Of a DNA stretch of 64,000 nucleotides, positions 46,862-64,000 are shown in pieces. The stretch covers positions 1-64,000 of the forward strand of contig NZ_JAIQZF010000001.1 of assembly GCF_020164585.1 (NCBI RefSeq). Reading direction: 5' to 3'. Under the pieces are notes generated by a model, which saw only the letters and a list, made by a program, of their open reading frames with translations, was not told where the DNA came from and did not search any database. Both the position numbers and the translations under genes were made by a program. Each line of letters starts with the position of its first letter. The stretch's first letter is position 1. This DNA comes from Psychroflexus curvus (GTDB lineage Bacteria > Bacteroidota > Bacteroidia > Flavobacteriales > Flavobacteriaceae).

Positions 46862-47140
46862 GAGTCGGGGAGACTCATCAAAGCGGATGTACTGATCCTC
46901 GATGACTTTGGCCTGCAGAGTTTTGATAATCACGCCAGGGAAACCCTTATGGATATAATAGATGACCGGTACAACAAAGCCTCCACAATTATATCATCAC
47001 AAATACCCGTATCGGCATGGTATGATATAATTGGGGAAGGAACTATAGCAGATGCTATTCTGGACAGGATCGTGAACTCCTCACATCGGATCGACCTCAA
47101 AGGAGAATCGTTAAGAAAAGGAGCATTAAAGAACGAGTAA
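46862..47140 (+). pseudogene. istB: C-terminal fragment of IstB, IS21-family transposition ATPase
   Basis: About 92 codons match the C-terminal half of IstB: the Walker B box DVLILDDFGL, then IIDDRYNKASTIISSQIPVSAWYDIIGEGTIADAILDRIVNSSHRI. Full-length IstB has about 245 residues and follows istA; the P-loop half and istA are missing. The fragment opens directly behind the yjjX terminator with no start of its own (only a chance GTG), so it is a deletion remnant. Confidence 0.9.
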
Positions 47141-47215: not shown

Positions 47216-47370
47216 AAATAGCCAGCCTTAAGAAATCTTATCAATCAATTCTCTACTTTTGTGAGACAACAATGTTTTAAATATATCTTTTAAGTGTTAA
47301 CTTTTTTTTTGTGTTGTGCTTAAAATATTGCTTTAACTTAGAAAGTGTTTTAAAATCCTAAGTGATTTAT

Positions 47371-50109
47371 ATGAATTACTATAAAATTATTTTTTTTCTA
47401 CTTGCTTTCCAAGCTTATAGCCTGTATTCTCAACAACTTGTTCCTCCTATTCACAATTACTATTCAACTGTTTATAATGCTGCAAGTCAAAACTGGGATA
47501 TTGATGTAGATAAAGATGGAGTGATTTACATTGCTAACAATCAAGGTTTATTAAGTTTTGATGGTCAATCTTGGGAATTATTTCCTTTGCCTGATGGTGG
47601 CATTATTCGTTCAGTTTTTGTCCATAAAAATAAAATTTTCACAGGTTCATATAAAGAATTTGGATATTGGAAAAAAGATAACACAGGAAAATATTTTTAC
47701 ACAACGCTTGTTCCACAATTCGAAAAATATGCTTTGCAAAGTGAAGAGTTTTGGGAAATTTTGGCTTTTGAGGGGGACATATATTTTAGATCTTTTGGAG
47801 CAATTTATAAATATGATTACAATACAATAACTCGAGTACAGAATGTAGTTAGTAATAAAATGATTGTATATCAGAACAAACTTTTAGTTACCGTAAAAAA
47901 AAATGGACTTTTTAATTTAAACAATAAAAATGAATTAGAAAAGCTTCCCAATCTTGAAATTTTGAATGGTGAAGTGGTTATTGATATGGCGATTCAGGGG
48001 AATGATCTTATAATGGGTACCCGAAAAAAAATTTTCATTTACGATGGGGAATCATCCAGATTATATGGCGATTCTAGATTACAAGAAGAGTTGAAGAGAT
48101 CTGATTTAAATAAAATATTGGCATTAGAAAATGAGAGATTATTATTTGGTACTGTTAATAATGGACTTATAAACTACAATAAAGAAAAAAAGTCTTATAC
48201 TATTTTTAACAGAAACAATGGTCTTCAGAATAATACTATATTAGATATTATTGAAAAAGATGGTAATGTCTGGTTAGGATTGGACAATGGAATAGATCGA
48301 ATAGAAATTGATTCTCCAATCAAATTTTATACAGATGATACAGGGGAATTAGGTGCTGTCTATGATCTAGAGTTTTATAAAAACAACATGTATCTTGCTA
48401 GTAATACTGGTGTTTACACTTTTGACAACAATCAGCTTAAAATTATTGATGGAGCTGAGGGGCATACATGGAATTTAAAAATATTGAAAGACACGCTGTT
48501 TGTAAATCATAATACAGGGAGTTATTACTTATTCAATGATAAATTGATACCGATAGAGACTACAACAGGAAGTTTCGAGATTTATGACATACCATCTGTT
48601 GCTAATGAATATTTAATAAGCAGTTATACTGGTATACGAAACTTTGATCGTAAACAAGATAGTGTCTACACTATTGAAAGTTTAAATTTTCCTGTTAAAA
48701 ACATTGTTTTTGAAAATGACCACACGTTTTGGGCAGTTCATCCTTATGAAGGTCTATATAGGGTAGGTATGAGTGAAAATTATAAAGAAACTAAGTTTAT
48801 TGACAGAATAAAAATCCCAGACGGAGGAAAAAGTATTAATACAGATATTTTTAAAATTAATAATAGGTTGGCTATTTTCAATGGTAAGCAGTGGTTTAAA
48901 TATAATCTTTTTAAAGATTCTGTTGAAATTTTTGAAGAGCTACAAGCTATGCAGAAGCATAAAATGTTGCTAAAATCAGATGATTCTTATTGGTTTAGTC
49001 ATACCGTAGATAACTCACTTAAATTTACTGATTTTGATAATCATAATATAGTTTTTTCTCTAAGCAATTTGAATAACCGTCTTGTGAAGAATTATGAAAA
49101 AATTTTAAAAAAGGATTCATTATTTTATATCGCGTTAAATAATGGTTTTGCGAGGGTGGACTTAGCCAAATTCATCAATAACTTAGCAGATGTTCAAATT
49201 AGTAAACCCACTGTTAATGGTTTTTTAGATTCAGAAGGGCGTTATCCACTTGTAAGGAAACCAGTGACTCCTTATAAGACTTCAAGAAATTTGAAAATTT
49301 TCACATCCCTTCCTGTTTCCGATGCTACTGGTTTACGATATCGATTAAAAGGGGAGGATACTTTAAGCGGTAAGGTCAACAATGGAGTAATTAATCTTAA
49401 GAATCTCAAGCATGGAGATTATGAGTTACAATTGCTAGCCATTGGTCCTCAAGCTAAAATTGCTAAGAAGAGTTTTTTTAATTTTAGTATAGCACCTCCT
49501 TGGTATTTATCATTTTTTATGAAACTGGTATATTTTTTAATCTTAATTTCTGTAGTAATTTTAGTTTATCGGTTCAATCAAATAAAGCTTAAAAAACAAC
49601 AGTTGTTTCTTGAAGAGAAATTTGAGAAGGAACATCAAGAGCGTGTTAACAATTTGGAAAAGGAAAATTTGGTAAATCAAATCAATTTAAAACGTAAAGA
49701 ATTGGCAAATACGACTATGATAGCAGCTAAAAAGAATGAGATGCTTATGGAGGTCCAAAATGAATTGAATAGAGAAGATACTAAGTTTGCAAATCAATAC
49801 AAGAAAAAACATTTACTAAAGAAAATCAATCAAGCCATTAAAAATAAAGAAGAATGGAAAGTCTTTGAAACAAATTTTAATGAACTCCATGAAGACTTCT
49901 TTAAAGATTTACTCGATAATTATCCTAAACTTTCAAATAAAGATTTAAAACTCTGTTCATATTTGAAGATGAATTTAGCTTCAAAAGAAATAGCACCATT
50001 AATGGGAATATCTCTTCGTGGAGTTGAAATACAGCGTTACCGATTGCGCAAAAAAATGGGTTTAGATAAAAGTACAAATCTTAATAATTTCTTTATTAAA
50101 AACTTTTAA
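47371..50109 (+). CDS. membrane-spanning beta-propeller sensor with LuxR-type HTH (PUL regulator)
   Basis: The 912-residue one-component regulator starts with a signal peptide (YYKIIFFLLAFQAYSLYSQ). Residues about 25-610 are periplasmic two-component-regulator propeller repeats (GVIYIANNQGLLSFDGQSWELF, NVWLGLDNGIDRI), followed by a Y_Y_Y-like Ig domain and a transmembrane helix (about 712-734). A cytosolic coiled coil (about 740-800) and a C-terminal GerE-like helix-turn-helix (LSNKDLKLCSYLKMNLASKEIAPLMGIS, RGVEIQRYRLRKKMG) complete it. No histidine kinase domain exists, unlike hybrid two-component sensors. It precedes susC and probably senses an oligosaccharide and drives this locus. The ATG at 47371 is preferred over a GTG nine bases earlier. 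Confidence 0.88.
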   Translation: MNYYKIIFFLLAFQAYSLYSQQLVPPIHNYYSTVYNAASQNWDIDVDKDGVIYIANNQGLLSFDGQSWELFPLPDGGIIRSVFVHKNKIFTGSYKEFGYWKKDNTGKYFYTTLVPQFEKYALQSEEFWEILAFEGDIYFRSFGAIYKYDYNTITRVQNVVSNKMIVYQNKLLVTVKKNGLFNLNNKNELEKLPNLEILNGEVVIDMAIQGNDLIMGTRKKIFIYDGESSRLYGDSRLQEELKRSDLNKILALENERLLFGTVNNGLINYNKEKKSYTIFNRNNGLQNNTILDIIEKDGNVWLGLDNGIDRIEIDSPIKFYTDDTGELGAVYDLEFYKNNMYLASNTGVYTFDNNQLKIIDGAEGHTWNLKILKDTLFVNHNTGSYYLFNDKLIPIETTTGSFEIYDIPSVANEYLISSYTGIRNFDRKQDSVYTIESLNFPVKNIVFENDHTFWAVHPYEGLYRVGMSENYKETKFIDRIKIPDGGKSINTDIFKINNRLAIFNGKQWFKYNLFKDSVEIFEELQAMQKHKMLLKSDDSYWFSHTVDNSLKFTDFDNHNIVFSLSNLNNRLVKNYEKILKKDSLFYIALNNGFARVDLAKFINNLADVQISKPTVNGFLDSEGRYPLVRKPVTPYKTSRNLKIFTSLPVSDATGLRYRLKGEDTLSGKVNNGVINLKNLKHGDYELQLLAIGPQAKIAKKSFFNFSIAPPWYLSFFMKLVYFLILISVVILVYRFNQIKLKKQQLFLEEKFEKEHQERVNNLEKENLVNQINLKRKELANTTMIAAKKNEMLMEVQNELNREDTKFANQYKKKHLLKKINQAIKNKEEWKVFETNFNELHEDFFKDLLDNYPKLSNKDLKLCSYLKMNLASKEIAPLMGISLRGVEIQRYRLRKKMGLDKSTNLNNFFIKNF

Positions 50110-50261
50110 TACTCTAATTTGATAAGCATTTGGCTACTTCATTACTACATCAATGCGTTTTATTTGTTTAAGAATCATACTACATTGTGGTTTTAAAATA
50201 TTAATAATCAGACATATAGTTACCTCATTTCATTTGAAGTAGTAGTAGTGTACTATAACGT

Positions 50262-50293
50262 TTGCGCTTACTTGGGGCTTATCTCTAATTTTA
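50262..50293 (+). promoter_or_regulatory. candidate promoter of the susC operon
   Basis: TTG at 50262-50264 and TAATTTTA at 50286-50293 (21-bp spacing, one mismatch to TAnnTTTG), 28 bp before the susC start. The direct repeat-like AGTAGTAGTAGTG at 50239 may be part of a regulator site. Confidence 0.45.
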
Positions 50294-50320
50294 CCTCAAT
50301 AATAAGTAAAAATAAACCCG

Positions 50321-53300
50321 ATGAAATTTAAACTATTTTCAATTTGCTTAGTTCTTATGTCAAGTTTTGGTTTTGCTCAGCAAACCAAAACCATTACAGG
50401 TACAATTACGGATCAAAATCAAATGCCTTTACCAGGTGCTGAAGTAAAGGTGCTTGATAAAGAAATTTTTGATGTTACCGATTTTGACGGAAATTTCACA
50501 TTAGAAGATGTAGAAGTTGGAGCCAAGATAAGAGTCACTTTCCTTGGTTTTTCTCCCCAAATGTTCACCGTAGATGAAAGTAAAGACTATTCCATTATGA
50601 TGCAGCCAGATACAGATCTATTGGATGAAATCATTGTAGTTGGTTTTGGTACTCAAAAAAAGAGGGATTTAACTGGAGCTATTAGTAGTCTTGACACTGA
50701 AGAAATTGAAAAAACACCTACTTCAAACGTTATGCAATCTTTGCAAGGTAAAGTGGCTGGAGTCCAAATTGTAAGTTCTGGTTCACCTGGAGGTTCTCCA
50801 ACAGTAAGGATTAGAGGTTTAGGAACATTTGGTAATGCAACAAATGTATTGTATGTAGTAGATGGTGCATTATATGATAATATTGATTTTTTAAATACCA
50901 ACGATATTAAATCTATAAATGTCCTAAAAGATGCTTCATCTTCAGCTATTTATGGAGTGAGAGCAGCTAATGGTGTTGTCATTATTGAAACCAAATCTGG
51001 AAGGAAAAATCAAAAACCACAATTTGAATACGATGGCTATACTGGATTCCAGAGAGCTCAGAATGTTGTGAAATTAGCTAATACAGAGCAGTTTGCTACT
51101 ATGGCTAGAGAGTCTGGATCATCGGCAGATGTTGAATTTATTAACAATGCAATTCAACGTTATGGACGCAGCCGAATAAATCCTAACGTACCTGCAGTTA
51201 ACACCGATTGGTACAAAGAAATATTAAGAGAAGGATTTATACAAAACCACAGTTTATCTGCATCAGGAGGTAGCGAAAATATCGTTTATGCTCTTGGTAC
51301 AAATTATTTCTCACAAGATGGTGTATTAGATATGAAAAATAATTATGAGCGTTTTAATATCCGTTCCAAAATTGATGTAGATTTAAGTGATCGTTTAAAA
51401 GTTGGAGTAAATTCAATATTTAGTAATGCTACCAAATATTATCCAGAGAACGGTGCTTGGTTTAGAGCTTATTTTGCAGTTCCTACAATGCCTGTTATAG
51501 ACGAGTTAAATACAGAGGCAAGTCCTATCCGTTATTCCAATGCTCAATTGTTGGGTTATAGAGGTACTCAAAATCCTTTTCAGGATCTTGCCTATAACGA
51601 AAATCGAAACAAAATTAGAAAACTACTTACGACGATGTTCGTTCAATATGATATTATAGAGGATAAGCTAGATATAAAATCCACTTATAGTCATAACTAC
51701 TCTTCTTTAGAAGAAAGAAATGTAAACCTTCCTTATACAATGGGCAATAATTTTGAACGAAGATCAAGTATTAGAAGGTCAAATAATAATTTTTCTAATC
51801 AATATTGGGATAATGTCCTAACTTATGACGATAATTTTGGTAATCACGACTTTACTGTGATGTTGGGAACGTCCTATAGAGACGAAGCTAGTAATACCTT
51901 TTCTGCTACTGGTGTTGATATTTCTGGAATAGAACTTGAATCAAGCAGGTTTTTGGATTTTGCAGATCCTGATTCTTTTAGCAACAATGTAAGTGAAAGA
52001 GGAAGAAGATTTTTTGGGTTATCCTACTTTGGTAGAGTAGCTTATAGTTTTAAAGATAAATACCTATTGTATGGAACGTTTAGAGCTGATGGTTCTTCTA
52101 AATTCACTAGAGATCCCTGGGGCTATTTCCCATCTGTTGGATTAGGTTGGGTAGTTTCAGAAGAAGATTTCCTAGCGGATAATGAATTATTAGATTTCTT
52201 TAAATTAAGAACAAGTTGGGGAAAATTGGGTAACGATAACGTTGCTGCAAGTGCAGGATCCAATACGATTAACGTTATTACAACTCCTATTGGAGACGAG
52301 CCGCGAAGTGGAATCACTTCTACAAGTGTATTTTCAAATAATACTTGGGAAGTTATTGAAGAATTCAATTTCGGTTTAAATCTTCAAGCTTTTGATAGGA
52401 GATTATCTATAGATGCTGATTATTATATACGTGATACTCATGACGCTATCATACCGGTTTTTATACCAATTGTTAATAGAAGCGTTAATAAAAATGCGGC
52501 AGTTATAAGAAATGAAGGATTAGAGCTCGTTGCAAGCTGGAACCAGCAAGTCTCCGAGGATTTTAGTTTTAGAGTGAGCGCAAACTTTACAACCCTTAAA
52601 AATGAAACACTTGAAATTGAAGATGAAAGAGGTTATATTGATTCTGGCTCTGCTGAATTTAGACAACGTACCACAATTGGTGGACCATTACTAGGTTTTT
52701 ATGGTTATGAAAGAATCGGGGTGTATCAAAATCAAGAGCAGATTGATGCAGATCCTGTAGCAGTTAACAATGGCTTAGTTCCTGGTGATTTAATTTATCG
52801 AGATCAAAATGGTGATGGTGTGATTGATGATTCTGATAGAAAAATAATAGGATCGTTTCTTCCAGAATTTACGTTCGGTGGTAACCTAGGAGTCTCATAC
52901 AAAGCCTTTGATTTTTCATTGGATTTTTATGGTCAAACCGGCAATAAAATCCTGAATAGAAAACGAGGTGAAATCATCTTTACTCAGGATACCAATATGG
53001 ATGCAGACCTTGCTATTAACAGATGGCATGGAGAGGGAACTAGTAATACTTACCCGTCATCAGAAGGCTTGCGTAAGGCTTGGAATCAGAAACTGAGTAA
53101 TTTCTGGGTAGAAGATGGAGATTTTTTCCGTATTCAAAATATTCAAGTAGCCTATAATTTTGAACCAGAAGGATTTCCAGAATCCCGAATTTATTTTACA
53201 GCAGAGAGACCATATACATCATTTAGTTATAATGGCTTCAATCCAGAAGTAGCTAATGGTGTAGATAGGCAAACCTATCCAGTTCCAGCAATTTATACAG

Positions 53301-53323
53301 TGGGAATTAATTTAAAATTTTAA
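50321..53323 (+). CDS. SusC/RagA-type TonB-linked outer-membrane transporter
   Basis: A 1000-residue outer-membrane channel that imports oligosaccharides together with its SusD partner, powered by TonB. A signal peptide (ending FGFAQ) is followed by the CarboxypepD_reg-like domain (about 24-100). Then come the TonB-box region DEIIVVGFGTQKKRDLTGAI, the plug with TVRIRGLGTFGNATNVLYVVDGALYD and the barrel that ends GINLKF. It lies 9 bp before susD. Together with the GH144 genes downstream it should carry beta-1,2-linked gluco-oligosaccharides, an inference from context. Confidence 0.95.
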   Translation: MKFKLFSICLVLMSSFGFAQQTKTITGTITDQNQMPLPGAEVKVLDKEIFDVTDFDGNFTLEDVEVGAKIRVTFLGFSPQMFTVDESKDYSIMMQPDTDLLDEIIVVGFGTQKKRDLTGAISSLDTEEIEKTPTSNVMQSLQGKVAGVQIVSSGSPGGSPTVRIRGLGTFGNATNVLYVVDGALYDNIDFLNTNDIKSINVLKDASSSAIYGVRAANGVVIIETKSGRKNQKPQFEYDGYTGFQRAQNVVKLANTEQFATMARESGSSADVEFINNAIQRYGRSRINPNVPAVNTDWYKEILREGFIQNHSLSASGGSENIVYALGTNYFSQDGVLDMKNNYERFNIRSKIDVDLSDRLKVGVNSIFSNATKYYPENGAWFRAYFAVPTMPVIDELNTEASPIRYSNAQLLGYRGTQNPFQDLAYNENRNKIRKLLTTMFVQYDIIEDKLDIKSTYSHNYSSLEERNVNLPYTMGNNFERRSSIRRSNNNFSNQYWDNVLTYDDNFGNHDFTVMLGTSYRDEASNTFSATGVDISGIELESSRFLDFADPDSFSNNVSERGRRFFGLSYFGRVAYSFKDKYLLYGTFRADGSSKFTRDPWGYFPSVGLGWVVSEEDFLADNELLDFFKLRTSWGKLGNDNVAASAGSNTINVITTPIGDEPRSGITSTSVFSNNTWEVIEEFNFGLNLQAFDRRLSIDADYYIRDTHDAIIPVFIPIVNRSVNKNAAVIRNEGLELVASWNQQVSEDFSFRVSANFTTLKNETLEIEDERGYIDSGSAEFRQRTTIGGPLLGFYGYERIGVYQNQEQIDADPVAVNNGLVPGDLIYRDQNGDGVIDDSDRKIIGSFLPEFTFGGNLGVSYKAFDFSLDFYGQTGNKILNRKRGEIIFTQDTNMDADLAINRWHGEGTSNTYPSSEGLRKAWNQKLSNFWVEDGDFFRIQNIQVAYNFEPEGFPESRIYFTAERPYTSFSYNGFNPEVANGVDRQTYPVPAIYTVGINLKF

Positions 53324-53332
53324 AAAAACGAA

Positions 53333-54856
53333 ATGATGAAAAAATATGATTTAACAAAAATTCTGCTTCTTTGCCTAGTTTTTGGTTTTGGAGCAAGCTC
53401 ATGCAGTGATAAGCTTGAAGAGCGCGAAGGTCAATTAAATACAGGGGATTTTGATTATACCGATACAAGTAATATGATACAACCTCTTATAGGTGCATAT
53501 TACGAATTTGCAACTCGAGGTTGGGAAGAACCCCTGCTTTTAGGAGTACGAGGAGATGATGTAAATGCTGGAGGTCTTGGAGATCAACAGCCATTTACTG
53601 ATACAGACTTATTTGATTATGATACTAATTATTGGATGTATAATTCTCTTTGGAATGTCCATTACAATGATATCGTTAATTTGAACAGTGCAATTTCACA
53701 AATACTGCGCTTTAAAGAATTTGCAGATGCTGAAGAAGCAGCTAGAGCAGATCAATATATTGCTGAGATAAAGGTGTTAAGGGCATACCTTCATTTAAAT
53801 CTGGCCAGAACTTGGGAAGATGTTTTTATTATTACTTCCAATCAGCCAGATGAAGAATTAAAGCAAGGGGTTTCTTCAAAAGCCCAAGTAATGCAATTTA
53901 TATCGGACGAAATGGATGCTGCTATAGAAATATTGCCAGATGCTCGCCCAAATGAACGTACCGATATCGAAGGTGGAGTCACAAAATATACAGCCTATGC
54001 TCTAAAAGCATTAGCGAACCAAGAGGTTGAAAATTATCAAGCTGTAGCTGATGCAGCAGGAGCGATTATAAGCTCAGGAAAATTTTCTCTTCACCCTGAT
54101 TTTTACCAACTGTTTAAAAAACCAGGAGAACTTAGTAATGAAAGCCTGCTTGAAATACAATTTTCTGATTATGGTAGTGAAACAGGAAATGCATTATATC
54201 ATTTATATGCTCCTTTTGGTCCACAAAACTGGACTCCTGCAAGAGAAAATGCGCGAAGTGGTTGGGGATTCTATGAGCCTAGTAATAAATTTATCAAGTT
54301 CATGATAGAACGTGAAGAAGAGATAAGGCTCCAAACAAGTGTTTTGTTTACAGATAGAGGAATTGCAGAACTTGAAGCAGAGGGTGTAGTTATCCCTGAT
54401 TTTGTTTCTAATACAACTCCATCTGGAGATATAATCAATGATTTTGCTCGAGGAAAATTTTCTAGTGGTAAGCATTATCTTCCGTCTATTCAGCTTACTG
54501 ATGGAAGAAATAGCTATGGAGCAGGTAAGAATTTCATTATTATTCGTTATGCAGAAATCCTGCTAATGTATGCAGAGGCTTTAACGCTAGGAGCAAGCGG
54601 TTCTGCGATTTCTGCAGATGAAGCTGTAAATTTAGTAAGAGAAAGGGCTGGGATGCAACCTTTAAGTGGTGTAACCCACGAGCAAGTTTTGGATGAAAAA
54701 TTTGCTGAATTAGCCATGGAATGGGGTATTAGATACTATGATATGATTCGTCACGATAAGTTTGATGAATTAAGCTATGACGGAAGAAATTTCTCAGCAA
54801 ACGATAAATATTTACCATACCCTCAGGCGCAACTCGATGCCTTACCAATAGATTAA
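53333..54856 (+). CDS. SusD/RagB-type surface glycan-binding lipoprotein
   Basis: The 507-residue lipoprotein (lipobox GASSC) closes the SusC channel like a lid and binds the glycan. The TPR-rich SusD fold shows ALKALANQEVENYQAVADAAGAIISSGKFSLHPDFYQLF, then NESLLEIQFSDYG and the typical C-terminal FIIIRYAEILLMYAEAL...RERAGM and ELAMEWGIRYYDMIRHDK. It is coupled to susC by a 9-bp gap. The glycan specificity is not readable from sequence. Confidence 0.95.
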   Translation: MMKKYDLTKILLLCLVFGFGASSCSDKLEEREGQLNTGDFDYTDTSNMIQPLIGAYYEFATRGWEEPLLLGVRGDDVNAGGLGDQQPFTDTDLFDYDTNYWMYNSLWNVHYNDIVNLNSAISQILRFKEFADAEEAARADQYIAEIKVLRAYLHLNLARTWEDVFIITSNQPDEELKQGVSSKAQVMQFISDEMDAAIEILPDARPNERTDIEGGVTKYTAYALKALANQEVENYQAVADAAGAIISSGKFSLHPDFYQLFKKPGELSNESLLEIQFSDYGSETGNALYHLYAPFGPQNWTPARENARSGWGFYEPSNKFIKFMIEREEEIRLQTSVLFTDRGIAELEAEGVVIPDFVSNTTPSGDIINDFARGKFSSGKHYLPSIQLTDGRNSYGAGKNFIIIRYAEILLMYAEALTLGASGSAISADEAVNLVRERAGMQPLSGVTHEQVLDEKFAELAMEWGIRYYDMIRHDKFDELSYDGRNFSANDKYLPYPQAQLDALPID

Positions 54857-54906
54857 AACTGACACAATTCTATTAATACTATTTAATCATTATTAAATAA
54901 AAAATT

Positions 54907-56622
54907 ATGAATACAATCAATAACTATCTTTTAGGACTGTTTGCCTGTATGTTTATGCTTATTTCTTGCGAATATGATGGAATAGATCCGCTTACTCAGG
55001 TTGATCCTGGAGCCGATGCTGGTAGTCCTGAAGTGACGATTAACTTCCCAAATGAGGGAAGCACAATTAAAGTGCCCGAAGCTGTAGCTGCAATCAATAT
55101 TAAGTTTGAAGTGGTAGATGATATAGAGGTTGATATGATTGAGGTTCTGGTAAATGGTAACCAGATTGCTACTTTTAATGATTTTCTTGATTACCGTATC
55201 GTAAAGAAGGAAGTTACTTTTGATAACGTGACCAATGGAGAGCATACCTTAACTATTAATGCTACAGATATTGCAGGAAATACTACTAGCAAAACAGTAA
55301 ACTTCAGTAAAGAACCACCTTATACTCCTAAATTTGCCGGAGAGTTTTTCTATATGCCTTTTGATGGCGATTTTACCGAACTAATAAATATTTATATGGG
55401 AGATGAAACCGGAACCCCAGCTATTTCCAATGATGCTTTTTTAGGAACAGGAACCTATGAAGGGAAAGCTGATTCTTATATAGATGTAAAGCTTGATCAG
55501 GAGGATCTTGGAAACGAATTTAGTGGTGCTTTCTGGTATAAGGTTAGTGCAGAAGCCGACCGTGCTGGTATTCTTGTAGCTGGAGCCAATGAGGAGCGCC
55601 AGCAAGGTTTCCGTTTATTCAGAGAAGGAACAGCAGAAGAACAAAGACTAAAATTAAACGTGGGAACTGGAACCGGAGAAAGCTGGAATGATGGAGGAGT
55701 TATAAATGTGGCAGAAGGTGAATGGGTGCATGTTGCTTTTAGTGTAAATCCATCAGAAACAGTTCTCTATTTTAACGGTATGCCAGTTAACACGGGAAGC
55801 ATGACAGGAGCTATAGATTGGACTGGAGTTGAAGATCTCACCATTGGTTCAGGAGGTGAGACATTTAGCTACTGGGGCCACAAAGCTGATATAAACAGTA
55901 ATATAGACGAACTGAGGCTGTTTAATAAAACATTAAGTCAGCAAGATATTCAGGAATTGATCAATGCTTCTTCAATCACTCTCGATATGCCTTTTAACGG
56001 TGATTATACTGATGTGGTAGCTAATCGTGAAGTCACAGAAGTAGGATCTCCTGGTTTTGCTGGTGAAAGTGTAGAAGGCAACAATGCCTATGCGGGAGCA
56101 GCTGATTCTTACTTATTATTACCATCAGAAGGTCTTCTAAGTGAAGAATTTAGTGCAACGTTTTGGTATAAAGTGAATGCTGATCCAGATAGAGCAGGAA
56201 TAATTACTATTGGTCCTGAAGATGAAGAGAACCCAGATGCACAAAACAATAGAACCAGTGGTTTCCGCCTTTTTAGAGAAGGAAATGCCGATGAACAACG
56301 CATTAAATTAAATGTTGGAACTGGTTCTTCTGATAGTTGGAATGATGGAGGTGTGATAGATGTAAACGTTGGAGAATGGGTACACGTCGCTTTTACTATT
56401 TCAAACTCTGAAAGTAAAATTTATTTGGACGGAGAGCTGATGAACACTGGGGCCGTTTCCGGTGGAGTAGATTGGACAGGAACCGACATTGTATCAATAA
56501 TGTCTGGTGCACCAAGGTTTACCGGTTGGAACCACCTGTCAGACAGAAGTTTTATGGACAATCTGCGTTTCTATAACAAAGCCTTAACTGCGGAAGATAT
56601 TCAGGCCGCAATGGGAAAATAG
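54907..56622 (+). CDS. surface lipoprotein with Ig-like and two LamG/concanavalin-type domains
   Basis: The 571-residue lipoprotein (lipobox LISC) is in the SusE/SusF position. Residues about 40-135 form an Ig-like domain (VTINFPNEGSTIKVPE). Two homologous domains follow at about 148-350 and 352-571. Each starts with MPFDGDF or MPFNGDY and contains SGAFWYKV/SATFWYKV, RAGI, GFRLFREG, KLNVGTG, SWNDGGVI and EGEWVHVAF/VGEWVHVAF, and ends in a helix. The duplicated design suggests two binding sites for a long or repeating glycan. It is followed by a strong terminator, separating it from the enzyme genes. Confidence 0.82.
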   Translation: MNTINNYLLGLFACMFMLISCEYDGIDPLTQVDPGADAGSPEVTINFPNEGSTIKVPEAVAAINIKFEVVDDIEVDMIEVLVNGNQIATFNDFLDYRIVKKEVTFDNVTNGEHTLTINATDIAGNTTSKTVNFSKEPPYTPKFAGEFFYMPFDGDFTELINIYMGDETGTPAISNDAFLGTGTYEGKADSYIDVKLDQEDLGNEFSGAFWYKVSAEADRAGILVAGANEERQQGFRLFREGTAEEQRLKLNVGTGTGESWNDGGVINVAEGEWVHVAFSVNPSETVLYFNGMPVNTGSMTGAIDWTGVEDLTIGSGGETFSYWGHKADINSNIDELRLFNKTLSQQDIQELINASSITLDMPFNGDYTDVVANREVTEVGSPGFAGESVEGNNAYAGAADSYLLLPSEGLLSEEFSATFWYKVNADPDRAGIITIGPEDEENPDAQNNRTSGFRLFREGNADEQRIKLNVGTGSSDSWNDGGVIDVNVGEWVHVAFTISNSESKIYLDGELMNTGAVSGGVDWTGTDIVSIMSGAPRFTGWNHLSDRSFMDNLRFYNKALTAEDIQAAMGK

Positions 56623-56634
56623 ATTTTAAAAATA

Positions 56635-56667
56635 ATTCCGGCTCTAACCAGAGCCGGAATCTTTTTG
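56635..56667 (+). terminator. strong terminator inside the locus, after the LamG gene
   Basis: ATTCCGGCTCT (56635-56645) and AGAGCCGGAAT (56650-56660) form a perfect 11-bp stem with loop AACC, followed by CTTTTTG. It would limit read-through from susC-susD-LamG into the hydrolase genes. Confidence 0.9.
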
Positions 56668-56757
56668 TCTTGCTAGATAGTTTAGTGAGAGTGGTCTATA
56701 TACTAAAAAAATATTCTGGATTCATTATTTATATTCTTCCTCAATTAAACTTTCAAG

Positions 56758-58089
56758 ATGACTAGATACTTATATTTTATTGGATTACTGTTAATTCTTT
56801 CGTCCTGCTCCAGTGATGAAGGTCCGGGATACCAGGAACCATACGATCCAAATTCAGAAATTGATGAAGAAGAACAATTAACTGATGAGGAGTTACTGGA
56901 AAAAGTTCAGAAGCAAACCTTTAAATACTTCTGGGAATTTGCAGGAACCAACTCTGGATTAGCCCGCGAACGTTCTCAAGCCGATGCTTATGGAGGACAG
57001 GGAAGAAATATAGTTACAATTGGAGGATCTGGTTTTGGTATTGCTGCTTTTCCTGTTGCCGTAGAAAGAGGTTGGATAAGTAGGGCAGAAGCTATTGGAA
57101 GGCTGGATAAAATTCTTGACTTCCTGGAAGAGGTTCCAACTTACCATGGTGCTTTCTCTCATTGGTATCTTGATGATTCAGCTCAAACACGACCTTTTAG
57201 TGAAAGGGATAACGGAGGAGATCTGGTAGAAACTGCTTTTTTAATCCAGGGGCTATTGATCGCCCGACAGTATTTTTCAGGAGAAACCGAAATCACAAAT
57301 CGAATTACCGCCCTTTGGGAAGCTGTAGAATGGGATTGGTACACCCAAGGTGAAAATGTGCTTTACTGGCACTGGTCTCCTAATTATGCATTTGATATAA
57401 ATCTGAGAATTCAGGGATGGAATGAATCGCTTATGGTTTATGTCCTTGCTTCCGCATCTCCAACTTATACTGTTGACCCAAAAGTCTACCATCAAGGTTG
57501 GGCTTCTAACGGAAATATGGTAAATAACCGGCAATATTACGGGATAGACCTCCCATTGGGACCTGCCTACGGAGGGCCGCTTTTTTTTGCGCATTACTCT
57601 TTTATAGGTTTAGATCCCCGAAATTTGAGTGATCAATATACCAATTACTGGGAACAAAATGTTGCGCATAGTCTTATTCATTATAATTATGCGATAGATA
57701 ACCCTAAAAATTTTGAAGGTTATGGTGAGAATAGTTGGGGTTTTACCGCTAGTGATAGTTATGAAGGATATTCGGCTCACAGCCCGGCTAACGATTTAGG
57801 TGTAATTACACCAACGGCCGCCTTATCTTCTTTTCCCTATACTCCCGAAGAATCTATGAAAGCCCTAAGGTACTTTTATGAGGAAAAAGGAAATGAGCTT
57901 TGGGGATCTTACGGTTTCTATGATGCTTTTTCGGAAGAAGAGAACTGGGTAGCGGATGGTTATCTGGCCATAGACCAAGGGCCAATAATTTCAATGATAG
58001 AAAATCACAGAACTGGTTTGATTTGGGATCTTTTTATGCAAGATGAAGAAATACAAGCTGGTTTGAATAAACTGGGCTTTAATTATTAA
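56758..58089 (+). CDS. GH144-type endo-beta-1,2-glucanase candidate (PF10091), lipoprotein
   Basis: The 443-residue protein has a lipoprotein signal (ILSSC) and the alpha/alpha-barrel landmarks of the glycoamylase-like family PF10091, which includes GH144 endo-beta-1,2-glucanases: KVQKQTFKYFWEFA, IGGSGFGIAAF, ERDNGGDLVETAFLIQGLL, LYWHWSP, and ENSWGFTASDS. It should cut beta-1,2-glucan on the cell surface or in the periplasm. It is about 65% like the next gene in its motifs, so the pair is probably a duplication with divided roles. Specificity is inferred from the family, not proven. Confidence 0.82.
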   Translation: MTRYLYFIGLLLILSSCSSDEGPGYQEPYDPNSEIDEEEQLTDEELLEKVQKQTFKYFWEFAGTNSGLARERSQADAYGGQGRNIVTIGGSGFGIAAFPVAVERGWISRAEAIGRLDKILDFLEEVPTYHGAFSHWYLDDSAQTRPFSERDNGGDLVETAFLIQGLLIARQYFSGETEITNRITALWEAVEWDWYTQGENVLYWHWSPNYAFDINLRIQGWNESLMVYVLASASPTYTVDPKVYHQGWASNGNMVNNRQYYGIDLPLGPAYGGPLFFAHYSFIGLDPRNLSDQYTNYWEQNVAHSLIHYNYAIDNPKNFEGYGENSWGFTASDSYEGYSAHSPANDLGVITPTAALSSFPYTPEESMKALRYFYEEKGNELWGSYGFYDAFSEEENWVADGYLAIDQGPIISMIENHRTGLIWDLFMQDEEIQAGLNKLGFNY

Positions 58090-58115
58090 TACCGAAAATT
58101 TAGAATTATATAACG

Positions 58116-59486
58116 ATGACTAACTATAAATCAATTTTAAGTTTTTTTATATTCAGCTTGTTACTTTTTAGTTGTAAGAATTTATCAGAAAAACAGGAAA
58201 TAGAAATAACAGAATATAAAACACTTTCAGAAGAAGCCCTGTTGGATACTGTTCAGAAGCAAACCCTTAAATATTTTTGGGATTATGCCGAGCCAAATTC
58301 TGGTATGGCTCGGGAACGCTATCATCCTGATGGTGAATACCCCAAAAACGATGCCCATGTAGTAACTACAGGAGGATCTGGGTTTGGTCTTATGGCAATT
58401 GTTGCTGGAATGGAACGGGAATTTATTCCTAGGGATTCTGCAGTAGTCCGTTTAGATAAGATCGCAAATTTTTTAGATAATGCTCCTAGATTTCATGGGG
58501 TTTGGGCGCACTGGTTAAACGGTAAAACCGGAGAAACCCAGTCCTTTAGTGATAAAGATAATGGAGGAGATCTTGTGGAAACTTCATTTTTAGCACAGGG
58601 GTTTATCGTGGTTCGTGAATACCTAAAAAATGGAAGCAAAAAAGAAAAAGCGGTTGCTGCTAAGTACGACAAACTTTGGAAAGGTATTGAATGGGAGTGG
58701 TACACAAATAATAAAGACGGACTTTACTGGCATTGGTCGCCAGATTATCAATGGGAAATGGATTTTATGATTGAAGGTTATAACGAGTGCTTGATCACTT
58801 ATGTAATGGCCGCTTCCTCCCCGGATCATGCAATTGAACCTGATGCCTACCACGATGGTTGGGCTCGTAGTGGAAATATTGTGAGCGATAAAGAAGCCTA
58901 CGGAATCCCATTAATTCTAAAACATAATACTCGAGGCGATAAAGCCGGTCCGCTTTTTTGGGCGCATTATTCTTATTTAGGATTGAATCCAAAAGGACTT
59001 GAAGATAGATATGCGAATTACTGGGATTTGAATGTGAACCACACTAAGATCAATTATGAATATACTCAGGAAAATCCGAATGATTTTGAAACTTATAATG
59101 AAAATTCCTGGGGCCTAACTGCAAGTTATACCCGTAATGAAGACGATGGAATAGGCTACACAGCACATTCTCCTGATACTGATCGTGGGGTGGTTTCACC
59201 AACCGCAGCGATTAGTTCTATACCTTATACTCCTGAACTTTCTTTGGGCGCTATGAGGTACTTCTTTGAAGATCAAAACGAGTTGCTTTGGGGACCAGCC
59301 GGATTTTACGATGCATTTAGTCTCGAAGTCGAAGATTGGGCAGCTCAAAGATATTTGGCCATAGATCAGGGGCCAATGGTAGTGATGATAGAAAATTACC
59401 GCTCTGGCCTTATTTGGGACTTGTTTATGGGAGCTCCGGAAGTGCAGGTGGGATTGGATAATCTAGGATTTAATGTTTCTAATTAA
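58116..59486 (+). CDS. second GH144-type endo-beta-1,2-glucanase candidate, lipoprotein
   Basis: The 456-residue lipoprotein (lipobox LFSC) repeats the family pattern: TVQKQTLKYFWDYAEPNSGMARE, TTGGSGFGLMAI, DKDNGGDLVETSFLAQGF, LYWHWSP, GYNECLITYVMAASSP and NENSWGLTASYT. It differs from the first copy in inserts (NTRGDKAG at about 268, EDDG near 345), so it may prefer another chain length or a cyclic substrate. It follows the first copy by 26 bp and precedes the phosphoesterase by 5 bp. Confidence 0.82.
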   Translation: MTNYKSILSFFIFSLLLFSCKNLSEKQEIEITEYKTLSEEALLDTVQKQTLKYFWDYAEPNSGMARERYHPDGEYPKNDAHVVTTGGSGFGLMAIVAGMEREFIPRDSAVVRLDKIANFLDNAPRFHGVWAHWLNGKTGETQSFSDKDNGGDLVETSFLAQGFIVVREYLKNGSKKEKAVAAKYDKLWKGIEWEWYTNNKDGLYWHWSPDYQWEMDFMIEGYNECLITYVMAASSPDHAIEPDAYHDGWARSGNIVSDKEAYGIPLILKHNTRGDKAGPLFWAHYSYLGLNPKGLEDRYANYWDLNVNHTKINYEYTQENPNDFETYNENSWGLTASYTRNEDDGIGYTAHSPDTDRGVVSPTAAISSIPYTPELSLGAMRYFFEDQNELLWGPAGFYDAFSLEVEDWAAQRYLAIDQGPMVVMIENYRSGLIWDLFMGAPEVQVGLDNLGFNVSN

Positions 59487-59491
59487 TTTAT

Positions 59492-60490
59492 ATGAATCGC
59501 TTTCCAACATATTTCAATAAAAAATGGAGTCTTGTTTTTTTACTCTTCGTATTTGCAAGTACGGGGTGTGTACGGGCACAAGAACATTTTTTTGAATTTG
59601 TAGTACTCCCAGATACCCAGACTTATGTTGAGGAATTTCCTGAAATTTATTTACACCAGATGCAGTGGTTAGCAAATAATAAAGATAGGTTTTCCTTTGT
59701 GCTTCACGTTGGCGATATCACCCAGAATAATAATGGAAAAGAATGGGACATCGCTAAAAAAGGTTTTAATACTATCGACGGGAAAGTACCTTATTCGTTT
59801 GCTTTAGGCAATCATGATATGGGAAGCGTAAGCGGGAAATTTGCTGATACCAGGAATACTTCTTTAGCTAATGCGTTCTTTTCGGTTAATGATTTCCCTA
59901 ATGTTATAACCTCTTTTCCTGAAGGCAAAGTTGATAATTTGTTAAGTGAATTTACCATAGGAAACCAAAAATGGATGGTGCTTTCACTAGAGTTTGGACC
60001 CCGAAATAAAACCATCGCTTGGGCCAATGAGATGGTCGCGAAATACCCCGAACATAATTTTATTTTAGTAACACACGCTCACATATATGAGGATAGTACG
60101 CTTCACGACGGAGAAGATTGGTGGCTTCCTGAAAACTATGGAATTGGTAAGGATACTGACGAAGAAGCTCCCAATAATGGAGGACAACTTTGGGAGAAAT
60201 TGATTAAAAAATACGATAATATTTCTATGGTGTTTTCAGGACACATCCTTAAAACCGGAGTAGGAACTTTGGTAAGCGAAGGAGAAAAAGGTAATAAGGT
60301 TTATCAAATGCTCGCCAATTATCAGAAAGGGGTAGAAGGTTCAGAGAACGGTGGTAATGGCTTTTTGCGGATAATAAAAGTTGATCCTGAAAATCAAAAA
60401 ATTGAAGTAAAAACCTATTCTCCCTGGCTTGATGAATTTATGGAGGAAAAGGAACATGATTTCACCTTCGAAAACATACAATTAAAATAA
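59492..60490 (+). CDS. exported calcineurin-like metallophosphoesterase
   Basis: The 332-residue exported protein (signal ending CVRAQ) has all metal-binding blocks of the family: D41 (LPDTQ), D75 (HVGDITQNN), N107-H108 (LGNHD), H195 and H197 (VTHAHIYED) and the late GHILKTG. It hydrolyses a phosphomonoester or diester with two metal ions. Inside a glucanase locus it might remove a phosphoglycerol, phosphoethanolamine or phosphocholine substituent from a glucan. That role is an inference. The next gene starts one base after its stop. Confidence 0.85.
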   Translation: MNRFPTYFNKKWSLVFLLFVFASTGCVRAQEHFFEFVVLPDTQTYVEEFPEIYLHQMQWLANNKDRFSFVLHVGDITQNNNGKEWDIAKKGFNTIDGKVPYSFALGNHDMGSVSGKFADTRNTSLANAFFSVNDFPNVITSFPEGKVDNLLSEFTIGNQKWMVLSLEFGPRNKTIAWANEMVAKYPEHNFILVTHAHIYEDSTLHDGEDWWLPENYGIGKDTDEEAPNNGGQLWEKLIKKYDNISMVFSGHILKTGVGTLVSEGEKGNKVYQMLANYQKGVEGSENGGNGFLRIIKVDPENQKIEVKTYSPWLDEFMEEKEHDFTFENIQLK

Positions 60491-61273
60491 ATGAAAAATA
60501 AATTTTTATACAGGTTAGTGATTTTTCTACTAATGGTGTCATTTTCAGTAATAGCTCAGGAGCAGGAAGCCTTTAAAAAGGAACATTTTATAAAAGATGC
60601 TGATACCTTGAATTACCGAATTTTATTTCCGAAGGATTTTTCTGAAGAAAAAGAATATCCGGTGGTTTTATTTTTACACGGTGCGGGGGAGAGAGGTAGT
60701 GACAATCAATCACAATTAACGCATGGCGGTGAATTATTTCTGAAGAATCAAGAGGAATTTCCAGCTATAGTTATTTTTCCGCAGGCACCAAAAGATGATT
60801 ATTGGGCAAAGGTTGAGGTGAATAGGGATACAGTTCCTTTTCAATTCGATTTTATGAATAAAAAGCCTGCTACTAAATCCTTGCAGCTGGTAATTGATTT
60901 AATGGATGTAATGACCTCGAAAAACTATGTAAATAAAGAACGAATTTACGTTGGCGGACTTTCTATGGGAGGAATGGGAACATTCGAATTGATTTACAAA
61001 AAGCCTGATATGTTTGCGGCAGCGTTTGCTATTTGTGGAGGTGCCAATCCTGAAATAACTAAAGATTACCCCAAGGGATTTAATATTTGGCTTTTTCACG
61101 GAAAAAAAGACGATGTGGTGCCCTCAAAACATTCTGAAGAAATGGCACGTGCTATTAATCATTATGGTGGAAATGCCAAACTTTCCTTATATCAAGAAGA
61201 CAATCATAATAGCTGGGATTCTGCTTTTGCAGAGCCTGACTTATTACCATGGCTATTTTCTAATTCAAAATAA
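60491..61273 (+). CDS. exported alpha/beta-hydrolase esterase (feruloyl esterase/PHB depolymerase-like)
   Basis: The 260-residue exported protein has a signal peptide (ending SVIAQ), an oxyanion motif FLHGAGERG (61-69), the nucleophile S158 in GGLSMGG, an aspartate in HGKKDDVVP (about 214) and a histidine in EDNHNSWD (about 242). It cleaves a carboxylic ester. In this locus it may remove a succinyl, acetyl or similar ester from a glucan. It starts immediately after the phosphoesterase stop and ends 6 bp before the GH3 gene. Confidence 0.85.
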   Translation: MKNKFLYRLVIFLLMVSFSVIAQEQEAFKKEHFIKDADTLNYRILFPKDFSEEKEYPVVLFLHGAGERGSDNQSQLTHGGELFLKNQEEFPAIVIFPQAPKDDYWAKVEVNRDTVPFQFDFMNKKPATKSLQLVIDLMDVMTSKNYVNKERIYVGGLSMGGMGTFELIYKKPDMFAAAFAICGGANPEITKDYPKGFNIWLFHGKKDDVVPSKHSEEMARAINHYGGNAKLSLYQEDNHNSWDSAFAEPDLLPWLFSNSK

Positions 61274-61279
61274 AAACAA

Positions 61280-63565
61280 ATGAAATATTTATTATTACGA
61301 GTGCTTGCATTAATTTTATTATTGAGCAGTTGTAGCAAAAATCAAAAAAATAATGCTTCATCTGATATCAATCGAAAAGTTGATTCTCTTCTCAATGAAA
61401 TGACTTTGCAGGAAAAAATTGGACAATTAAACCTTCCCTCAGCTGGTGATGTAAGTACTGGTATCAGCACAAACGCAGGCATAGCCAAAAGTATAAAAGA
61501 AGGAAAAGTAGGCGGTTTATTCAATATCACTGGAATTGATAAAATTAGGGCAGTTCAAAAAGTGGCTGTAGAGGAAAGCCGCTTAGGGATTCCTTTGATT
61601 ATAGCTAAAGATGTGATTCATGGTTATAAAACCACATTTCCTATTCCATTTGGGCTTTCCGCTAGTTGGGATATGGAGTTGATTCAACAATCTGCTAGAA
61701 TTGCTGCAGAAGAAGCATCTTCAGATGGTATAGCCTGGACATTTTCACCTATGACGGATATTTCAAGAGACCCACGTTGGGGAAGAGTTTCTGAAGGCGG
61801 CGGAGAAGACCCTTATTTAGGTGGTCAAATTGCAGCTGCTATGGTACGGGGCTATCAAGGCGATGATTTGTCAGCTGAAAACACCCTATTGGCATGTGTG
61901 AAACACTTTGCGCTTTATGGAGCCTCAGAAGCCGGTCGGGATTATAATACAGTGGACATGAGCCGATTGAGAATGTATAATGATTATTTTCCGCCCTATA
62001 AAGCAGCAGTTGACGCTGGGGTAGGAACTGTAATGGCTTCATTTAATGAAGTAGATGGTGTTCCTGCAACTGGTAATAAGTGGTTGATGACTAAAGTTTT
62101 ACGAGAAGAATGGGGTTTTGATGGCTTTGTGGTTAGTGATTATACTGGGGTGAGCGAAATGATCGCACACGGTATGGGTGATTTGCAGGATGTATCCGCT
62201 TTGGCTTTGAATGCAGGTGTTGAAATGGATATGGTAAGTGAGGGTTTTTTGACTACACTTAAAAAATCTGTGGAAGAAGGAAAGGTGTCAGAAGAGACCA
62301 TTAATAATGCCTGTAGGCTTATTTTAAAAGCAAAATATCAATTAGGCTTGTTTGATGATCCTTACAAATACATGGATGAAGAACGAGCTTCCAAAGAATT
62401 ATTTTCGGATGAAAATAGAGCGGTTGCCAGAAAAGCAGCTTCTGAATCGATGGTTTTGCTTAAAAATGATGGAGAGGCTTTGCCGGTTAATAAAAATGCT
62501 AAAATTGCTTTAATCGGACCTTTAGCAAACAATAAAGAAAATATGGTGGGCACTTGGAGTGTAAGTGCTGATATTATGAAATCAGTGTCCATTTATGAAG
62601 GTATAAAAGAAGTATCGGAAAACCCGGATAACATTCAGTATGCAAAAGGCTCCAACTTGGTAGAGGATGCGGATTTGGAAGAGCTAATTGGGATGCATGG
62701 CAAAAACACCTACCGAGATGACAGACCTGAAGCTGAAATGATCAATGAAGCAGTTGAGTTGGCGAATGAGTCTGATGTAGTTGTAGCCATACTGGGAGAG
62801 GCTTCCGAAAGTTCGGGTGAAAGTTCTAGTAGAACAGATATCAGCATTCCAGATAATCAAGTTCGCTTATTAAAAGCTTTAAAAGGAACAGGTAAAAAGG
62901 TAGTGGTAGTTTTATTGAGCGGTAGGCCTTTAGTTCTAGGAGAAATTCTTCCACATTCTGATGCTATTTTGAATGCATGGTTTCCGGGCTCTGAAGCTGG
63001 TCTGGCATTAGCTGATGTCTTGTATGGTGATGTAAATCCATCTGGTAAACTAACGATGACCTATCCGCAAAATGTTGGGCAAATTCCAATCTATTATAGC
63101 CATAAAAATACTGGAAGACCGCTGGAAGGTGAATGGTTTCAAAAGTTTAAATCCAATTATCTGGATGTGACCAATGAGCCGCAATTTCCTTTTGGTTTTG
63201 GTTTAAGTTACACGCAGTTTAAATACGATAATCTAAAACTCAGTTCTGACAGCTTAAGTGAAGACGGCACTATCAATGTAACAGTTGAAGTTTCAAATAT
63301 TGGAGAAAGAACAGGGAAAGAAGTGGTGCAATTATATATGAGAGATTTAGTTGCAACTATTACTCGCCCTGTTAAAGAACTGATAGGCTTTGAGAAAATA
63401 GAATTGAAAGCAGGAGAGACCAAAACAGTTGAATTTTCAATTAGTGAAAAAGACCTAGCATTTTACCATCAGGACATGAGTTTTTATGCAGAGCCAGGGG
63501 ATTTTAAAGTTTTTGTAGGTTCAAGTTCTGAAAAAGTGCTCGAATCCAATTTTGAATTAAAATGA
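61280..63565 (+). CDS. bglX: GH3 beta-glucosidase, lipoprotein
   Basis: The 761-residue exo-beta-glucosidase has a lipoprotein signal (LLLSSC). The (beta/alpha)8 domain ends with the nucleophile D287 in GFVVSDYTGV. GRVSEGGGEDPYLGG and KHFALYGASEAGRDYN are the canonical substrate-site loops. The second domain (about 400-600) contains IALIGPLANNKENM, and a fibronectin-III-like domain closes the protein (about 665-755). It removes glucose units from the ends of oligosaccharides. GH3 members in Bacteroidota act on beta-1,2-linked sophoro-oligosaccharides in GH144 loci, which fits this setting. Confidence 0.92.
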   Translation: MKYLLLRVLALILLLSSCSKNQKNNASSDINRKVDSLLNEMTLQEKIGQLNLPSAGDVSTGISTNAGIAKSIKEGKVGGLFNITGIDKIRAVQKVAVEESRLGIPLIIAKDVIHGYKTTFPIPFGLSASWDMELIQQSARIAAEEASSDGIAWTFSPMTDISRDPRWGRVSEGGGEDPYLGGQIAAAMVRGYQGDDLSAENTLLACVKHFALYGASEAGRDYNTVDMSRLRMYNDYFPPYKAAVDAGVGTVMASFNEVDGVPATGNKWLMTKVLREEWGFDGFVVSDYTGVSEMIAHGMGDLQDVSALALNAGVEMDMVSEGFLTTLKKSVEEGKVSEETINNACRLILKAKYQLGLFDDPYKYMDEERASKELFSDENRAVARKAASESMVLLKNDGEALPVNKNAKIALIGPLANNKENMVGTWSVSADIMKSVSIYEGIKEVSENPDNIQYAKGSNLVEDADLEELIGMHGKNTYRDDRPEAEMINEAVELANESDVVVAILGEASESSGESSSRTDISIPDNQVRLLKALKGTGKKVVVVLLSGRPLVLGEILPHSDAILNAWFPGSEAGLALADVLYGDVNPSGKLTMTYPQNVGQIPIYYSHKNTGRPLEGEWFQKFKSNYLDVTNEPQFPFGFGLSYTQFKYDNLKLSSDSLSEDGTINVTVEVSNIGERTGKEVVQLYMRDLVATITRPVKELIGFEKIELKAGETKTVEFSISEKDLAFYHQDMSFYAEPGDFKVFVGSSSEKVLESNFELK

Positions 63566-63574
63566 TGTAGTACT

Positions 63575-64000
63575 ATGCGATTATTTGCCACCTTATTTTT
63601 TCTAATAGCTTTTTCTTCATTTTCGCAAGATGAGGGAAGATCTATGAAAACGATCAATAGCAATTGGTCATTTAAATTAGGAAAAAAATCAGATAAGGTA
63701 GATTGGCAGAGAATCAATTTACCGCATTCCTGGAATAAAACAGATCCATTTGATGAGGAAAAAGACTATTATCGAGGCATAGGCAGGTACAAGCGAAAGT
63801 TGGAAATTGATAAATCCGACAACAGAAAGTGGTTCCTACATTTTGAAGGTGTAAATCAAATAGCGAAGTTTATGTAAATGGAGAATTTGCTGGAAAGCAT
63901 ATTGGAGGATATACCTGGAAAGTATTCAGACTGGAAAAAAGATATGTTTGGAAATCGTGAATATGAACCTTCTTATTTTAAAGATACTAACCGATTAAGC
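63575..64000 (+). pseudogene. disrupted GH2 beta-galactosidase/glucosidase-like gene, cut by the window edge
   Basis: A signal peptide (MRLFATLFFLIAFSSFSQ) and the start of a GH2 sugar-binding domain (WSFKLG, WQRINLPHSWN, YYRGIGRYKR, LHFEGVNQIA) read well to about residue 95, then stop at 63875-63877. One missing base near 63862 explains this: in the next frame the GH2 text continues EVYVNGEFAGKHIGGYT to about 63917. After that it no longer looks like GH2. Instead the original frame, from 63878, reads MENLLESILEDIPGKYSDW...YEPSYFKDTNRLS to the edge. So the gene carries a frameshift and possibly a junction with foreign sequence. Confidence 0.75.

Follow-up and report, generated by a model that had tools for sequence, protein, structure and literature searches.

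A cluster of nine intact genes, all on the + strand and found at positions 47371-63565 of the window (the whole stretch of 64,000 nucleotides of Psychroflexus curvus that was analyzed), constitutes a SusC/SusD polysaccharide utilization locus (PUL) that, on balance, would serve to capture and eat a substituted beta-1,2-glucan. This type of PUL is already known, and a decorated beta-1,2-glucan has been proposed before (PMC6499787). What appears to be new, being undescribed in the open literature searched, is a conserved cassette that joins GH144 and GH3 glycosidases to a phosphoesterase (MPE) and an esterase (EST), in the order GH144-MPE-EST-GH3, together with a clade of MPE proteins with an altered metal motif.

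Organization of the Locus

The window, from a marine-type bacterium, is the start of a 510-kb contig in a 3.0-Mb genome of the Flavobacteriaceae type. Using Pfam and NCBIfam profiles, the locus genes were identified with domain E-values far beyond chance, and adjacent susC and susD genes, a surface lipoprotein, CAZymes and a regulator are all present within one cluster. The features of the region are the following.

46862-47137, + strand: remnant of an IS21-family IstB, C-terminal part only (PF01695, E 3.7e-25, profile positions 150-232 of 238)
47371-50109, + strand: regulator with beta-propeller repeats, a membrane helix, a coiled coil and a LuxR-type HTH (weak matches: Reg_prop 0.0011, GerE 0.0059)
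50321-53323, + strand: SusC-type TonB-dependent transporter (TIGR04056, E 1.5e-237)
53333-54856, + strand: SusD-type surface lipoprotein (PF07980, E 1.6e-22; lipobox ASSC)
54907-56622, + strand: putative surface glycan-binding lipoprotein with a Big_7 domain and two concanavalin/LamG (Laminin_G_3) domains (PF13385, E 1.5e-43; PF17957)
56758-58089, + strand: GH144a, endo-beta-1,2-glucanase, lipoprotein (PF10091, 4e-77; 5gzh (CpSGL), E 1.1e-144)
58116-59486, + strand: GH144b, beta-1,2-glucanase, probable lipoprotein (PF10091, 3e-78; 5gzh, E 7e-168)
59492-60490, + strand: MPE, exported calcineurin-like phosphoesterase of a DxQ subfamily (PF00149 (Metallophos), 1e-7)
60491-61273, + strand: EST, exported alpha/beta-hydrolase esterase (PF02230, 1.9e-16; solved esterase 3doh, E 8e-36)
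61280-63565, + strand: GH3 beta-glucosidase lipoprotein (PF00933, 7e-76; PF01915, 4e-57; 5xxl, Lin1840)
63575-63939, + strand: decayed GH2 (tblastn with an intact Salegentibacter GH2, two frames)

The regulator, for which an upstream GTG at 47362 is a possible alternative start, contains no kinase domain that could be found, and its homologues stand at the head of most GH144 loci. The lipoprotein with two LamG domains is also widely kept (32 of 47 sampled GH144 loci). An earlier note on this DNA had listed two GH144 enzymes, a GH3, a phosphoesterase and an esterase, and the profile searches confirm that all five are present, intact and co-directional; it described the phosphoesterase and the esterase as exported proteins, and the enzymes of the locus show either signal peptides or lipobox-like sequences at their N-termini. 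Three features went unnoticed in the note: the decayed GH2 immediately after the locus, the IstB remnant immediately before it, and the loss at that latter place of a sulfatase carried by relatives. The same note gave gaps of 1-6 bp between these genes. The joining is indeed tight, although the measured range is 0-6 bp, with untranslated gaps of 5 bp between GH144b and MPE, 0 bp between MPE and EST and 6 bp between EST and GH3; GH144a and GH144b are separated by 26 bp.

The Glucan Backbone Enzymes

The genome contains exactly two copies of PF10091, GH144a and GH144b, which are about 50% identical to each other. Both show full-length homology (about 400-425 residues) to CpSGL from Chitinophaga pinensis, the founder of family GH144 (5GZH), and both conserve its essential acidic residues: the equivalents of CpSGL D135, D139, E142 and E211 are residues 151, 155, 158 and 223 in GH144a and residues 148, 152, 155 and 224 in GH144b, according to a mapping based on the chain offset in 5gzk. 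Mutation of D135, D139 or E142 in CpSGL causes a drastic drop in activity (PMC12102758), and E211 is a clan residue whose equivalent is found in both copies. The window differs from the C. pinensis system in having two predicted lipoprotein copies. In GH144a the lipobox is followed by CSSDEG, and this enzyme is probably located at the cell surface.

The GH3 enzyme, with its nucleophile motif VVSDY at D287, is very similar to the periplasmic beta-glucosidase 5xxl (E 4e-303) and to the sophorose enzyme Lin1840 (1e-177), both of them GH3 enzymes of solved structure associated with beta-1,2-glucan. We take 5xxl to be BT_3567 of the beta-1,2-glucan cluster of Bacteroides thetaiotaomicron. That SGL cluster shares with the window locus the combination of GH144 and a closely related GH3 (5xxl), but no substituent-removing enzymes have been described for it in the literature surveyed, whereas candidates for such enzymes are present here. 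As published work pairs GH144 with GH3 in the breakdown of this polymer, a beta-1,2-glucan backbone is close to certain, and we predict it as the backbone substrate of the locus with high confidence; the assignment to beta-1,2-glucan made in the earlier note is thus strongly supported.

Linkage of the Phosphoesterase and the Esterase to GH144

The distribution of MPE and EST was followed in a comparative sample of 301 Flavobacteriaceae genomes, drawn without selection for these genes, 75 of which carry GH144, mostly as a tandem pair. Members of the close MPE clade (matches above 55% identity) are present in seven of the 301 genomes, from seven different genera and including the window genome, and in all seven GH144 directly adjoins MPE; the other 68 genomes with GH144 lack MPE. 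A query with MPE only against about 85,000 species genomes returned eight named loci, all beside GH144, in Salegentibacter, Galbibacter and Flavobacterium daejeonense (the Salegentibacter sediminis locus belongs to the sampled seven as well). The nearest named relatives of the whole locus are Salegentibacter species. In all 14 GH144-linked MPE loci, MPE immediately follows a GH144 gene, and the pairwise identities of MPE and of its neighbouring GH144 across these 14 loci are correlated with r = 0.95, as expected under joint inheritance. More distant MPE homologues (below 50% identity) were rejected as GH144 partners, having no GH144 within about 10 kb.

EST is an alpha/beta-hydrolase with a serine nucleophile motif (GLSMG, at residue 156), as is typical of carbohydrate esterases. 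Among its best 41 family matches, 40 have GH144 at a distance of 8 kb or less, in comparison with one of the next 33, and genomes with this EST clade account for 41 of the 75 GH144 genomes. EST is, judging from this distribution, a common part of the GH144 type of PUL, and MPE a rarer but equally specific one. Such conserved linkage indicates that both proteins belong functionally to these loci, in agreement with the earlier proposal that the phosphoesterase and the esterase are part of the locus, which is now backed by conserved synteny. EST is proposed to remove acyl groups; its homology allows no assignment to acetyl or succinyl and does not point to succinate.

The linkage also bears on the possibility that MPE serves for phosphate scavenging, cleaving any phosphate-containing glycan or phosphodiester for its phosphorus in the manner of the SusCD-type Pus clusters. 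Phosphate-starvation SusCD clusters with PF00149 phosphodiesterases exist in Flavobacterium (PMC8115612), and SusCD loci with phosphodiesterase genes and without CAZymes are known (PMC6499787). The MPE clade, however, keeps company with genes for GH144, the esterase and GH3 and not with phosphate genes, and we consider scavenging very unlikely.

In two Salegentibacter loci (L006 and L007) the enzyme cassette is kept while SusC and SusD are distant (26-38% identity), which gives the impression of a swapped uptake system.

Fold and Metal Site of MPE

No characterized relative of MPE was found by sequence: a PDB sequence search with MPE alone gave no match, a profile of 24 sequences gave one short local match against the PDB (to a purple acid phosphatase), and there is no NCBIfam family for it. 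The AlphaFold model obtained from 24 homologues (pLDDT 83, pTM 0.83) has the calcineurin-like phosphoesterase fold, and Foldseek relates it to Lmo2642, GpdQ and Rv0805 (E 4e-10 to 1e-7, with modest TM-scores); the best solved-fold matches include purple acid phosphatase and the glycerophosphodiesterase GpdQ, and the sequence identity to class III/GpdQ-type folds in the fold alignments is about 10%.

Class III phosphodiesterases have DxH at the first metal site. Their motif is given as D..GD..GNH[E/D]..H..GHxH (PMC8366450). MPE, which resembles these enzymes in predicted fold and in most metal-site residues, retains D, GD, GNHD, H and GH from this motif, but its first site reads DxQ instead of DxH and its GHxH site has lost the second His; both differences extend to 24 of 24 aligned members. 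MPE is therefore short of two of the usual metal ligands, and its activity as a phosphodiesterase should not be taken for granted. On the other hand, D41, D75, N107, H108, H195 and H251 are invariant across the 24 homologues; because these remaining metal-site residues are conserved, catalysis has likely been kept. DxQ also occurs in CPPED1, a human enzyme of this superfamily that is active. An invariant N276-x-Q278 is located near the GHx motif of MPE.

The replacement of two canonical ligands (DxQ and GHx), with invariant N276 and Q278 nearby, would also be in line with a repurposed fold, in which MPE would not be a phosphoesterase at all but, for instance, would bind a ligand or hydrolyse some other bond or substituent in a glycan. 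This is quite unlikely, since the six invariant metal-site residues argue for retained catalysis and the solved folds that match best, GpdQ among them, belong to phosphoesterases. MPE is accordingly best described as a proposed phosphodiesterase acting on a substituted glucan.

A Proposed Degradation Pathway

In the pathway that we propose, the surface LamG protein, SusD and GH144a would bind the glucan chain and cut it to oligosaccharides, which SusC would import. In the periplasm, GH144b would shorten these oligosaccharides, EST would take off acyl esters and MPE a phosphate-linked substituent (most likely a phosphodiester such as phosphoglycerol), and GH3 would finally release glucose. We infer the placement of the locus proteins at the surface or in the periplasm from the lipobox flanks only. 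Gene content, family membership, the catalytic residues of GH144, the export signals and the linkage of EST and MPE to GH144 can be read from the sequences themselves. The removal of substituents by EST and MPE is somewhat favoured by the gene content and its conservation, and phosphoglycerol, phosphoethanolamine or succinyl are plausible as the groups removed; presumably one and the same glucan would be the substrate of both enzymes. Against this reading stand the altered metal motif of MPE, the decorations suggested by the genes of related loci (see below) and the 68 of 75 GH144 genomes that lack MPE.

Source of the Glucan

Cyclic beta-1,2-glucans and osmoregulated periplasmic glucans (OPG) carry phosphoglycerol, phosphoethanolamine and succinyl groups (PMC7569799; PMC3818809; PMC11842490), and the earlier note had suggested that this organism may eat these proteobacterial glucans. 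According to this explanation, MPE would free phosphoglycerol or phosphoethanolamine and EST would free succinyl groups. It agrees with the known OPG substituents and with the composition of the window locus, where all glycosidases are glucan-backbone enzymes accompanied by MPE and EST. Furthermore, MdoG is absent from the genome, so that OPG made through OpgG would be foreign to this organism. Nevertheless, the homology of EST is not toward succinate, and the beta-1,6 glucose branches of E. coli OPGs are matched by no dedicated debranching enzyme that could be identified here.

A different source is suggested by work on marine Bacteroidetes, in which the association of GH144 with a sulfatase led to the inference of an unknown decorated, sulfated marine beta-1,2-glucan (Lapebie et al. 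2019, PMC6499787). A sulfatase inside the GH144 locus is found in relatives of the window locus and not in the window locus itself. Whole-genome searches of the 301 genomes identified this locus sulfatase (of the CxPSR type) in 44, each of them a GH144 carrier, with matches 62-76% identical to the Galbibacter copy; it is present in six of the seven MPE genomes, that is, in all but the window genome (loci of fixed width undercount it, with three of seven MPE loci). The closest solved sulfatase is PDB entry 9s03. One such sulfatase (L010 14293-16071) has matches only in GH144-carrying genomes of the sample, and sulfatases of this type are a candidate for the first enzyme known to act on sulfated beta-1,2-glucan.

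In S. sediminis the sulfatase gene is divergent from the regulator and 168 bp away from it, and GH43, GH3 and GH2 genes follow EST. The window has, between an intact gene and the regulator, the IstB remnant at the place occupied in relatives by the divergent sulfatase. No GH144-locus sulfatase was found when the window genome was searched, and its only clear sulfatase gene (G000:C1:95084) is unrelated to the locus enzyme. The GH43 gene that stands between EST and GH3 in Salegentibacter is missing, and GH2, intact near the locus in relatives, is reduced to a stump with a frameshift near 63865, an ORF stop at 63877 and homology that ends near 63939. In the region continued in L003 3575-4294, the stump is followed by a 138-aa open frame without a Pfam match. 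With the sulfatase lost, GH43 absent and GH2 decayed, the window locus is most readily understood as a reduced version of a PUL whose counterparts in relatives would handle a more heavily decorated polymer.

Related GH144 loci contain a conserved sulfatase and GH43, GH2 or GH97 genes, an inventory suggestive of decorations that differ from the ones known in OPGs. No sulfate has been reported among OPG substituents in the literature surveyed and, since relatives have the sulfatase and often GH43 or GH2, the fit of a marine decorated beta-1,2-glucan is no worse than that of OPG. The corresponding explanation is that the target is a marine sulfated and acylated beta-1,2-glucan, as already proposed for marine GH144 PULs (PMC6499787), that the window copy of the PUL has been reduced by the loss of the sulfatase, GH43 and GH2, and that MPE removes another group of the same polymer. 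The strict co-occurrence of the sulfatase with GH144, its presence in most MPE genomes, the IS21 remnant at its place in the window and the loss or decay of GH43 and GH2 all speak for it. The window genome, however, lacks such a sulfatase and yet has the core glucan genes, EST and MPE intact, so that the present-day substrate need not be sulfated. This explanation is a tentative one. The sulfatase in six of the seven MPE genomes also counts against the action of MPE and EST on proteobacterial OPG or cyclic glucans, which seems rather unlikely; given the conserved sulfatase and the frequent GH43 or GH2 of relatives, it is doubtful that such glucans, put forward in the earlier note, are the main natural substrate.

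Relation to Known Systems

The marine GH144 PULs (PMC6499787; Maribacter/Zobellia, PMC8072126) belong to the same bacterial family and share with the window locus SusCD, two GH144 genes, a GH3 and an accessory gene for substituent removal, which in them is a sulfatase, whereas the window locus has a phosphoesterase and an esterase and no sulfatase. The link to a phosphoesterase and an esterase is not mentioned for marine GH144 PULs in the accessible parts of either source. The novelty that the earlier note saw in its substrate assignment is accordingly reduced, as a decorated, sulfated beta-1,2-glucan had been put forward for marine GH144 PULs in PMC6499787.

The recycling of anionic, substituted beta-1,2-glucans is little studied, and an open-literature search gave no report of an enzyme removing phosphoglycerol from them during degradation. 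The GH144-MPE-EST-GH3 cassette supplies two enzyme candidates and several related loci, and the modular way in which a sulfatase, an esterase or a phosphoesterase is added to a single set of backbone enzymes makes the proposed marine decorated beta-1,2-glucan directly testable.

An MPE Relative in a D-Arabinan-like Locus

The nearest MPE outside GH144 loci (48% identity) is found in locus L121 (8199-12879, genome G555), where it is flanked by two DUF2961/GH172 genes and accompanied by SusCD, GH43/GH32-like and L-fucose isomerase genes. Dysgonomonas gadei eats mycobacterial D-arabinan with GH172 enzymes and a fucose isomerase (PMC10115798). L121 thus has the appearance of a locus for D-arabinan utilization that includes a phosphoesterase of its own, and its resemblance to the D. 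gadei PUL hints weakly, as a second indication, at an association of the MPE group with bacterial envelope glycans. It can be speculated, as a rather unlikely possibility, that MPE is the first of a novel group of phosphodiesterases, marked by a DxQ/GHx metal site, that strip phosphoglycerol or phosphoethanolamine from bacterial envelope glycans; some Flavobacteriaceae would then eat the substituted envelope glucans of other bacteria. L121 is alike to PUL42 of D. gadei (PMC10115798) in its GH172-type genes and L-fucose isomerase, whereas the window locus differs from PUL42 in backbone and in GH families.
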